Below, piece after piece: positions 33,108 through 36,398 of a stretch of 64,000 bases of DNA (positions are counted from its first letter, which is position 1; every line of letters begins with the position of its first letter). This DNA comes from Thermoleophilum album (GTDB lineage Bacteria; Actinomycetota; Thermoleophilia; Solirubrobacterales; Thermoleophilaceae). The notes beneath the pieces were generated by a model. The model did not search any database, was not told where the DNA came from, and saw only the letters and a program-made list of their open reading frames with translations. A program made the translations under genes and the position numbers. The DNA lies in NCBI RefSeq assembly GCF_900108055.1, contig NZ_FNWJ01000001.1, positions 186,001 to 250,000 of the forward strand. Reading direction: 5' to 3'.

Positions 33108-34106
33108 GTGCGGCTCTTAACCTCGCTTGAGGAGGCGATCGGCGCCGCCGCGTCTCGGCAGACAGAAGCGGCCAACGAGCCGATCTGGATCGACCTCGAG
33201 TGCCCGGCGCAGGAGCTCCGTGCGGATGGGTTGCCGCAGCTCCTACCGGCCGAACTGCGCGACGAGTTCGCCGAGCGAGCTCGGTTATTAGCGATCGAAG
33301 CGCAGAGTGGACCGGCCGCCGTGGAGCGCGCGGACGGCGAACCACCGCCGTTGCCGAAACCGGACCTCGTCACCACCAACGGCGCGATTCTCTGCTCGCT
33401 GGCCGCGGCTGATCGTGCAGGCCGGGCGCTGGCCGTTTTGCTCGTGGCCTCGGCCGAGGTCGTAGTGAGCTGGCGCGAGCGGCCGCTTCAGGAGCTCGAG
33501 GAGCTGCGGACAGCGCTACCGGCGACGGCACACCAGCTGGTCGCGTCGATTGTCGCGCGCACCGCCGGCACCCTCGACCAACTCCTTGATCCCTTCGACG
33601 AGCATCTCGCGGAGCTCGAGCGTCTCGCCGGCAGCGCGCACAAGTCCGCTTGGCGTGCAGCTGCAAGGGAAATCCCGCCGTTGCGCCGCCAAGCGCTGGC
33701 GATCCGCAGGCTGGCGCGCCAACAGGGGACGGTGGCGGAACGCCTCAGCGGACGTTTCGAGCTCGCCGGTGAGAGCACACCGGCGCTCGCTCGACTGCGC
33801 GAGGCCCGCGCGGAGGCCGAGGCGGCGGCCGCTGAGGCCAACGACGTGCTCGAGCTGCTCGCCTCGATCGCGGAGCTGATCGCGGGCAACACCGCCAACC
33901 GCCTCAACGAGGTGACCGAGCGGCTCACCCTGGTCGCAGTGATCTTCCTGCCGCTCACCTTCATCACCGGTTTCTTCGGCATGAATTTCGGCTGGATGGT
34001 CGATCACATCCGCTCGCCCCTCGCCTTCGTCACGCTCGGCCTGGTCCTGCCACTGCTCGCGCTGGCGCTGACACTGGTCGCCGTCGTACGCCTGGAACGC
34101 GACTAG
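33108..34106 (+). CDS. CorA-type divalent metal ion channel
   Basis: 332 residues from GTG 33108. A long helical cytoplasmic N-terminal domain is followed by two C-terminal membrane helices with the pore motif in TGFFGMNFGWM (GMN signature present). It would conduct Mg2+, Co2+ or Ni2+ by gradient. The residue after GMN is usually part of an MPEL-like loop; here FGWM, which is common among ZntB/CorA outliers, so the ion is uncertain. It lies 9 bases after the binding protein. Confidence 0.9.
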   Translation: MRLLTSLEEAIGAAASRQTEAANEPIWIDLECPAQELRADGLPQLLPAELRDEFAERARLLAIEAQSGPAAVERADGEPPPLPKPDLVTTNGAILCSLAAADRAGRALAVLLVASAEVVVSWRERPLQELEELRTALPATAHQLVASIVARTAGTLDQLLDPFDEHLAELERLAGSAHKSAWRAAAREIPPLRRQALAIRRLARQQGTVAERLSGRFELAGESTPALARLREARAEAEAAAAEANDVLELLASIAELIAGNTANRLNEVTERLTLVAVIFLPLTFITGFFGMNFGWMVDHIRSPLAFVTLGLVLPLLALALTLVAVVRLERD

Positions 34107-34139: not shown

Positions 34140-34841
34140 GTGGCCGGCTGGCGGGCGTCAGATCGAGGGGGCAACGGGGACGACCAGTCCAGCGCCGTCA
34201 CCAAGCGTCCCCCCACCCTGAGCGAGCTAACGCGCCTGGACGACGCCGAACTGCTGGTTCTAATTCGCGAGGCTCGCGCAGCGGGCGACGAGGAGACAGC
34301 GCGGCGGGCCGCTGACACCCTGTTCGCCGGCTACATCCCGCACCTGCAGAAGCGGGCACTCTTGAGGCTGCGAAACACCCGTTTCGAAGGGCAGATCGAT
34401 GACGTAATCCAAGAGACCCTCGCCGCCGCTTTGTCCTTCTCCTTGCGAGGCCAGACCGCCCAGGCGTTCCGGGCTTGGCTACACACAATCCTCGAGCGGC
34501 GCATCGCCGACCTCTTCCGCGGCCGTGGCCAAGATCGCCTCGCTGCCGATCTTTCGCTCGATGACGCGGCGGGGCCGGCGGGACCACGTACCGACGCCGA
34601 CCTCGCGGACTTGCTGCACTGTCGGGACGCCCTGCAGGAGGAACTGGGACGACTCAGCGATCGCCACCGTCAGCTCGTCTCAATGATCCTCTTCCGAGGG
34701 TTCTCGACCGCGGAGGCCGCACGCCTCACGGACCTCTCGTTGGACAACGCCTACCAAATTTTGTCGCGCTTCCAGCGGCGGGTGCTCGCGAGATTCAAGG
34801 AACCGGACGAACTACCAGTCGAGGAATCCAGCAGTGCCTGA
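34140..34841 (+). CDS. Sigma-70 family (ECF-like) RNA polymerase sigma factor
   Basis: 233 residues from GTG 34140. Region 2 spans about 65-130 (LFAGYIPHLQKRALLRL, then DDVIQETLAAAL, matching the DDxxQETF-type core-binding helix). Region 4 is about 165-225 (LQEELGRLSDRHRQLVSMILFRGFSTAEAARLTDLSLDNAYQILSRFQRRVL). Region 3 is absent, as in ECF sigmas. The stop overlaps the next gene by eight bases, implying coupled translation with an XRE-like regulator, followed by an ImmA protease. No classical anti-sigma zinc finger or membrane gene is adjacent. Confidence 0.88.
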   Translation: MAGWRASDRGGNGDDQSSAVTKRPPTLSELTRLDDAELLVLIREARAAGDEETARRAADTLFAGYIPHLQKRALLRLRNTRFEGQIDDVIQETLAAALSFSLRGQTAQAFRAWLHTILERRIADLFRGRGQDRLAADLSLDDAAGPAGPRTDADLADLLHCRDALQEELGRLSDRHRQLVSMILFRGFSTAEAARLTDLSLDNAYQILSRFQRRVLARFKEPDELPVEESSSA

Positions 34842-35484
34842 GGGCGACCACGAGATGACGCTGTTCGAGCGCCTCGCCGCGTTCGCGCAGGCGTTCGCGG
34901 CGGGGGAGGACCCGGACCCTTTTGCCTACACCGAAGGGCTCACGGAGGTCGAGCAGCGGGCGCTGCTGGGGTTCATCGACGCCTACCTCCGCGAGGCGCC
35001 GCGGCTCGCACCCGAGCTCGTGGCAGAGTCGCTGCGCGATCGCATCACCGAACGCGCGTGGCGCGCCGTCGCCGGGCGATCGGGGCTTTGGCCACTGCTT
35101 TTGCCCGCATTACGGGAGCGGGCGCGCAAGCTGCGTCGCGAGGTGGTCGCCGAGCTCGCCGCGCGCCTTGGGGCGAGCAGTCGTGAAGCGAAGATCGCCG
35201 ACTACTACCACCGCATGGAGCAGGGGTCGCTGCCAGCGGCGGGGGTTTCCGACACGGTGCTCGAAGCACTGGCAAAAGTGCTCGGGACAACCCTCGAGGA
35301 GCTGCGGCAGGCCGGTCGCGCGCTGCCCGCGCTTGGTCCGGAGCCTCGAACGTCGTCGGTCTTCGCTCGCACCGCCGAGCAGCCGAGCGAACCCTCGGAG
35401 GAGTCACGAAGCCCGAGCGCTAATTCGTGGGACGAATGGGACGAGATCGACCGCCTGTTCCTCGGCGGACCGCCGCCACAGTGA
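34834..35484 (+). CDS. XRE-like regulator paired with the sigma factor
   Basis: 216 residues from GTG 34834; an ATG at 34855 is an alternative start. Residues ~100-170 look like a divergent XRE helix-turn-helix (ELAARLGASSREAKIADYYHRMEQGSLPAAGVSDTVLEALAKVLGTTLEEL in pieces: LAARLGAS, YYHRMEQGSLP, VLEALAKVLGTTLEEL). The N-terminal ~95 residues are helical and unrecognised; the C-terminal ~45 are acidic and Ser/Glu-rich. I infer an inhibitor or co-regulator of the sigma factor and a likely substrate of the downstream ImmA-type protease. The HTH assignment is by eye and moderate. Confidence 0.6.
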   Translation: MPEGDHEMTLFERLAAFAQAFAAGEDPDPFAYTEGLTEVEQRALLGFIDAYLREAPRLAPELVAESLRDRITERAWRAVAGRSGLWPLLLPALRERARKLRREVVAELAARLGASSREAKIADYYHRMEQGSLPAAGVSDTVLEALAKVLGTTLEELRQAGRALPALGPEPRTSSVFARTAEQPSEPSEESRSPSANSWDEWDEIDRLFLGGPPPQ

Positions 35485-35567
35485 TGAACGCGGAGCGCGG
35501 CGTCAGCAGTCCGGGTCACGGCGCGACGTCATGAGCAAACGATGCCGACGACCGCGAAGGAGCGACC

Positions 35568-36398
35568 GTGGATCTCGCCGAGCTGTTTCTGCGCCTCGGA
35601 CCGTTCGCGGGCGACGACACGCTGCTGCGGCGACTGGTACCGCTGTTCGCGCACGACGAGGATCTCTGTGCGCGCCTCGATGCGCAGCTGCGGGCCCAGC
35701 CACGTTGCCAGGGCGCGCTCACGCCGCCGGCGCTTTCCGCCATCTGGTGGGCGATGATCGCTAACGCTGGGGCAGAACCGGACGATCAGCGTCGCGACCC
35801 GGAGATCACCGACGACGGGCGCTCTGCGGCCGCGCTATCGCGCGCCGAGAACGCCGCGCAGGAACTGTTGCGAGCAGTTCCCGGTTTTGTCTGGGACGGC
35901 ACGCGACTGCCCGTGCCGGTCGCCGACATTGCCGACTCGGTGCTCTGCCTGCGGGTACGCGAAGTCGAAGAGATGGCGGCGGCACCCGGTCTGCCGCCCG
36001 AGCTGGCGCGAGCACCCCTATCGGGACTGCTGCTTCCCGAGCTCGGCGAGATCTGGGTGAACGCGGCCGAGGCGCGCGAATGGCCCGCGCGCAAGCGCTT
36101 CACCATTGGTCACGAGCTCGGCCACTGGCAGCTTCATCGCGAAACCTTCGCTCCCATCTTCTGCCGCACAGAAACCGTTGACGCCAGCATCGAGGCCGCC
36201 TCCGCGCAGCGCGAGCGCGAGGCCAACGCCTTCGCCGCGGCGCTGGTGATGCCCGCCGAGTTGGTGATCCATCACTACGAGCGGCTGCGGACCGCCGAGC
36301 CCGAAGACCGCTTTGCAGAACTCTGCAAGCTGTTCGAGGTCTCGGCGAAAGCGCTCGAACGACGCCTCACCGTCCTTGGACTGAGCGCCGAGCAGTAA
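35568..36398 (+). CDS. ImmA/IrrE-type zinc metallopeptidase (M78)
   Basis: 276 residues from GTG 35568, preceded by AAGGAG at a spacing of five. The M78 active site is clear: HELGH at residues 182-186 in FTIGHELGHWQLH, and the third ligand in EREANAFAAALVMP (about 218). The C-terminal helical part (LCKLFEVSAKALERRLTVLGL) is typical of the ImmA family. Known members (Bacillus ImmA, Deinococcus IrrE/PprI) cleave XRE-type repressors to turn on gene sets. It lies 83 bases after an XRE-like gene and a sigma factor. An N-terminal ~80-residue helical part is not recognised. Confidence 0.9.
   Translation: MDLAELFLRLGPFAGDDTLLRRLVPLFAHDEDLCARLDAQLRAQPRCQGALTPPALSAIWWAMIANAGAEPDDQRRDPEITDDGRSAAALSRAENAAQELLRAVPGFVWDGTRLPVPVADIADSVLCLRVREVEEMAAAPGLPPELARAPLSGLLLPELGEIWVNAAEAREWPARKRFTIGHELGHWQLHRETFAPIFCRTETVDASIEAASAQREREANAFAAALVMPAELVIHHYERLRTAEPEDRFAELCKLFEVSAKALERRLTVLGLSAEQ

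Follow-up and report, generated by a model that had tools for sequence, protein, structure and literature searches.

The zinc peptidases of the M78 (ImmA/IrrE) type that have been described have repressors as their targets and respond to DNA damage or single-stranded DNA (ssDNA) (PMC10904395, PMC10233336, PMC13373217). ssDNA is the described signal for the IrrE/DdrO system (PMC10904395), and CapH/CapP consists of an XRE repressor and an ssDNA-activated M78 protease that control CBASS and other immune operons. ImmA, XRE and metallopeptidase go unmentioned in a review of the regulation of extracytoplasmic function (ECF) sigma factors (PMC8103513), and no published description of a trio of sigma factor, XRE protein and ImmA/IrrE-type protease was found in the literature searched, from which subscription journals were mostly beyond reach. 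Here we describe such a trio in a 64,000-nucleotide stretch of the Thermoleophilum album genome (contig NZ_FNWJ01000001.1, positions 186,001 to 250,000; hereafter the window, whose first base is position 1). Its three genes, all on the forward strand, encode an ECF-type sigma factor with regions 2 and 4 (SIG; 34140-34841, 233 amino acids, GTG start), an XRE-like, putatively soluble partner (MID; 34834-35484, 216 amino acids) and an M78 zinc peptidase (PEP; 35568-36398, 276 amino acids, GTG start).

We propose that these proteins form a cytoplasmic switch, in which SIG would drive a DNA-maintenance regulon together with its own module, MID would hold SIG, and PEP would cut the linker of MID. 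The probability that we assign to this reading is roughly one half (0.52). An initial annotation, made from the sequence of the window, had already named an ECF-like sigma gene overlapping an XRE-like gene by eight bases, and the open reading frames (ORFs) of SIG and MID indeed share positions 34834-34841. It had overlooked the promoter motif, the conserved C-terminal tail of MID and the association with DNA repair, which are described below.

Conservation of the three genes

Relatives were searched for with PEP and then with a MID profile, and the fetched loci were then profile-searched for the trio. Profile search detected MID in 79 of the 299 Thermoleophilia genomes, and a sample of the phylum yielded one further genome with MID outside the class. 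The named records of the family belong to Thermoleophilaceae, Solirubrobacterales, Conexibacter, Paraconexibacter and Bacterium HR41. SIG lies directly upstream of MID on the same strand in 74 of the 77 MID loci, and PEP adjoins MID in 71 of them, 55 times downstream on the same strand and 16 times in a convergent orientation. Three of the six MID loci without PEP stop less than 80 bases from MID. The order of sigma, XRE and ImmA genes is accordingly kept in related genomes, as the reading in the initial annotation would require, and this linkage rules out a chance neighbourhood of the three genes. The convergent arrangements indicate that the link between MID and PEP survives inversion. The trio is intact in about 70 genomes and its flanking genes vary from genus to genus, which argues that the three genes are kept together by function. 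In one genome scored as trio-negative (G051), a SIG-like gene is truncated by the end of contig C183 (locus L331); some absences of the trio may therefore be assembly gaps.

Pairs of XRE and M78 genes are often annotated as toxin-antitoxin systems (for example in PMC10538038), and a hit to the spr1629 antitoxin family was obtained here. The unit could thus be a toxin-antitoxin or mobile-element control module of the COG2856/XRE type that stands beside a sigma gene by chance. However, SIG belongs to the unit at nearly all loci, and searches of plasmids, phages and viral contigs gave no match to MID, on which ground a mobile-element or phage origin was rejected. The conserved trio largely refutes this explanation, which we regard as highly improbable.

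Sigma factor and peptidase

SIG matches Sigma70_r2 of Pfam above the cut-off (E 1.2e-6), and its region 4 falls narrowly below the cut-off (23.9 versus 25.7 bits). With the SIG family profile, ECF sigma factors of solved structure are retrieved at E-values of 3e-11 to 5e-11. Judged from these matches, SIG appears to follow the ECF domain plan, with sigma region 2 and region 4 only. Its GTG start codon aligns with a GTG start at two loci of the same genus (L023 and L024). A CorA-like gene (33108-34106) separates SIG from an upstream transport-type gene in the window and is absent at L023 and L024.

PEP matches Peptidase_M78 (PF06114) above the cut-off with an E-value of 6e-14. The zinc site of the window copy reads FTIGHELGHW, with the HELGH motif encoded at 36111-36125, and HExxH is kept in all 75 PEP relatives. 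The peptidase thus has an M78 domain with an intact HExxH zinc site, in agreement with the initial annotation. Its nearest solved relative is CapP (PDB 7t5t), and the best defence model in PADLOC is capP (2e-21), ahead of IrrE. A cysteine occurs within 35 residues after HExxH in 60 of the 75 relatives, and the conserved cysteine of the PEP family, which might serve as a switch, aligns with a cysteine of CapP in the profile match. The M78 match extends to residue 268 of the 276 in PEP, and because the domain reaches nearly to the C-terminus, a GAF-like sensor is absent. The first 80 or so amino acids of PEP (35568-35807) have their counterpart, in several relatives, in a stand-alone small ORF that lies between the MID and PEP genes (for example, L026:4552-4782), a fourth component that may exist either fused or on its own. 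The window's genome has another M78-type match (L002; G000:C1:332672-332821), which belongs to a 507-amino-acid open frame outside the trio.

Predicted structure of MID

The only Pfam match in the window copy of MID is a sub-threshold one to HTH_31 (E 7e-4), a domain that is present in 10 of 22 MID relatives. A sequence search against the PDB gave no XRE match, and the XRE relationship was seen by fold comparison only. The AlphaFold model of MID has a mean predicted local distance difference test (pLDDT) score of 81.8 and consists of an N-terminal helical domain, a five-helix block (residues 86-162), a disordered linker and a short helix of high confidence (residues 204-210). In the fold comparison, residues 82-168 (35077-35337) matched the XRE domains of SinR (Z 8.9), the N-domain of CapH (7t5u, Z 8.3) and the N-domain of DdrO (Z 7.8); these Z values are middling, but the match list consists mostly of XRE domains and agrees with the presence of HTH_31 in the relatives. 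The middle protein, which had been called XRE-like from its sequence, is thus predicted to contain a five-helix XRE fold.

Outside the fold, two short stretches of MID are kept across very divergent relatives. The first is a linker motif of the F-A-R or L-R type, in which R179 is invariant in alignment A4. It reads F-A-R in the window copy (residues 177-179; 35362-35370) and is a candidate protease site. The second is the extreme C-terminus, where the tail EWDEIDRLFLGG (residues 201-212; 35434-35469) includes the short predicted helix and follows the almost invariant consensus DE(I/V)DxLFxGG. A coding site of the DE[IV]DxLF type occurs once in the window's genome, and this occurrence is the MID tail itself. 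Searches of MID against Pfam and NCBIfam gave no zinc-finger or membrane anti-sigma domain, no transmembrane match was obtained, and the protein has no cysteine. A classical membrane or zinc-finger anti-sigma factor had been noted as missing at the outset, and if MID is an anti-sigma factor, it should be a soluble and non-classical one.

The same features can be read differently, with MID as a DNA-binding repressor of the CapH/DdrO/ImmR kind that acts on the SIG operon or a few promoters, so that cutting by PEP would derepress SIG and SIG would be the output. The XRE fold of MID is near the N-domains of CapH and DdrO, PEP is closest to CapP, and cleaved repressors likewise have a disordered linker with a C-terminal element behind it. 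To our knowledge, however, neither the N-terminal helical domain nor the near-invariant acidic tail is a feature of repressors of this type. The upstream regions of the operon bear further on this explanation.

Promoter motif upstream of the trio

When spaced word pairs upstream of SIG were counted without bias, GTCAG-N17-CGAC was found in 18 of 65 non-redundant loci, compared with at most 9 for any pair in shuffles. The motif is that of an ECF-type promoter and consists of TGTCAGA, with CGAC 17 bases after TGTCAG. A weight matrix scored above 12 bits upstream of SIG in 47 of 71 loci versus 3.7% of background segments; because the matrix was trained on the loci that it scores, this rate is optimistic, and the shuffle comparison is unaffected. 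The matches sit mostly directly ahead of the SIG start. In the window's genus, the motif stands before PEP; the promoter-like site GTCAG-N17-CGAC of the window lies at 35499-35529 on the forward strand (15.6 bits), and the exact consensus is found at the same place in L023 and L024. A weak and off-spaced match near the SIG start (34154-34183, forward strand, 11.6 bits) lies within the ORF and is ambiguous. We infer that SIG reads the TGTCAGA/CGAC promoter.

Clear information in the promoter alignment is confined to the -35 and -10 columns. Inverted repeats were not enriched in the upstream regions of SIG, and a shared operator palindrome was looked for there and not found, although species-specific operators could be missed. 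What is conserved upstream of the operon is an ECF-type promoter, which, together with the lack of a shared operator-like repeat, fits an anti-sigma factor better than a plain repressor. We consider a repressor role of MID, which is the main rival of the proposed switch, possible but unlikely.

The alignment also bears on the idea that MID is a co-activator or adaptor that takes SIG to promoters, with the XRE part on DNA and the tail on the sigma factor or polymerase, and that PEP ends the response. An XRE domain joined to a short conserved tail by a flexible linker would suit such a tether between DNA and polymerase. However, the promoters conserve no added binding site beside the -35 and -10 columns, and the M78 proteases described to date inactivate repressors. 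A co-activator role therefore seems very unlikely.

Candidate regulon

Exact motif sites in 18 trio genomes number 48, compared with 6 for the reversed pattern. Across the order, there are 2.0 exact sites per trio genome versus 0.6 in other genomes (p 4.5e-7, uncorrected for relatedness). Besides the SIG operons, the motif is found upstream of genes for SSB, SbcD, RmuC, an AddB-like nuclease, an SNF2-type helicase, ClpC, HtpX, HsdM and others, as well as upstream of genes for YhaM-like OB-HD nucleases in five genomes. The AddB-like protein behind the motif is a PD-(D/E)XK nuclease according to its matches to PDDEXK_1 (7e-36) and addB (1.3e-19). Some of the SSB and MazG sites belong to a single genus and have near-identical spacers, so that they are not independent, and the MazG sites may fall within coding sequence. 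The window's own genome has one exact motif hit, which has no convincing gene behind it, and 26 hits with one mismatch compared with 12 in the control.

Several additional copies of the motif were observed. Those at L214 (G187 775500-788500), L276 (G060) and L028 (G017) lie within a few kilobases of the trio and precede ARPP-1-type genes, an HsdM gene and a membrane-protein-like gene, which are possible local targets. In one trio genome, a Cas_GSU0053 (CRISPR-associated) gene (L210:2087-3250) has a motif copy 137 bases before its start. Strong matches also occur upstream of the YhaM-like gene in G021, G044, G038, G050 and G049, in which no trio was detected.

Proposed mechanism

In the proposed switch, SIG would read the TGTCAGA/CGAC promoters of its own module, which stand ahead of SIG in most genomes and ahead of PEP in the window's genus, and those of a small set of DNA-maintenance genes. 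MID, co-produced with SIG from the overlapping genes, would bind SIG through its body, its conserved C-terminal helix or both, and so keep it away from RNA polymerase. The trigger for PEP would most likely be DNA damage or ssDNA, as in IrrE/DdrO and CapP/CapH, and PEP would then cut the disordered linker of MID at or near the conserved F-A-R motif. The cut would part the XRE portion from the tail and free SIG, and positive feedback would then lift SIG, MID and PEP together. The known M78 systems, which cut repressors upon DNA damage or ssDNA, suggest rather than show the signal for PEP. The idea that the XRE-like protein holds the sigma factor until it is cut goes back to the initial annotation. 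The XRE fold and the conserved gene order speak for it, and the binding of MID to SIG, the cleavage of MID by PEP and the nature of the signal are steps that we infer. The switch also accords with the overlap of the SIG and MID genes, the disordered linker and conserved tail of MID, the CapP-like protease, and an ECF-type promoter that points to auto-regulation and to DNA-maintenance targets. In a Foldseek search with a model of the SIG-MID read-through product, ECF sigma factors were at the top, yet every E-value was at least 0.001. Natural fusions of SIG with MID or of MID with PEP, which would hint at contact, were looked for and none was found.

LexA was found in most relatives of the window's genome, and the trio as a replacement of LexA was accordingly rejected; a trio-based system would act beside LexA. 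That the trio forms a sigma-based DNA-damage response of Thermoleophilia beside LexA, with an XRE-fold anti-sigma factor removed by an ImmA/IrrE-type protease, is a tentative proposal to which we give somewhat less than an even chance.

Several observations weigh against the proposed switch. With LexA in most relatives, there is no need for another response to damage. PEP lacks a C-terminal sensor domain. The read-through model has a predicted template modelling (pTM) score of 0.65 and provides no interface score, and MID modelled alone already shows the tail helix with confidence. The motif stands before the YhaM-like gene in 7 of 14 trio genomes and in 6 of 14 trio-negative genomes (p 0.31).

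The similar frequency at the YhaM-like gene with and without the trio weakens the claim of SIG as the sole reader of the motif there; another factor may read it, and the link to SIG is not established at that gene. More generally, the motif might be read by another regulator of the trio operon and the repair genes, with SIG having other promoters, an explanation that is compatible with either a repressor or an anti-sigma role of MID. The occurrence of the motif before the YhaM-like gene in trio-negative genomes speaks for it. On the other hand, exact sites are commoner in trio genomes, and the motif is absent before 15 SIG-family sigma hits of trio-negative genomes, where the best match does not exceed 9.0 bits. 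Moreover, GTAAG replaces GTCAG in the more distant trio families, as expected if the sigma factor that reads the motif drifts with the module. We regard a different reader of the motif as rather unlikely.

If the switch operates as proposed, M78 proteases can release sigma factors as well as destroy repressors, and two textbook stress controls, repressor cleavage and regulated anti-sigma proteolysis, would be joined in one system. The poorly studied Thermoleophilia, which are soil and hot-spring bacteria, would gain a candidate sigma factor for DNA stress whose promoter is defined.

Comparison with known systems

The trio resembles CapH/CapP in that PEP is nearest to CapP by sequence, the predicted XRE domain of MID is near the CapH N-domain, and the protease gene adjoins the XRE gene. 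In contrast to CapH/CapP, the trio includes a sigma factor, MID has a conserved acidic tail and, at its N-terminus, an additional helical domain, little sequence follows the M78 domain in PEP, and the candidate outputs resemble DNA-maintenance genes. With IrrE(PprI)/DdrO of Deinococcus, the trio shares an M78 protease, an XRE-fold partner and a likely link to DNA damage. However, DdrO binds to promoter sites directly and dimerises through its C-terminal domain, the IrrE/DdrO system has no sigma factor, and PEP lacks the GAF-like domain.

ImmR/ImmA of ICEBs1 and TnSmu1 is likewise a pair of XRE and M78 genes (PMC10233336). Unlike the trio, it has no sigma gene and controls mobile elements, whereas plasmids, phages and viral contigs yielded no match to MID. 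The idea of a protease that frees an ECF sigma factor, as well as the likely auto-regulation of the sigma factor, is shared with membrane anti-sigma proteolysis of the RseA-SigE type and with soluble anti-sigma factors. MID differs from the RseA-SigE-type systems in being predicted as soluble, with neither a zinc-finger nor a membrane anti-sigma domain, and PEP in being a cytoplasmic M78 peptidase. The trio is real and conserved, and it is best called an XRE/M78 protease module that is now coupled to a sigma factor.
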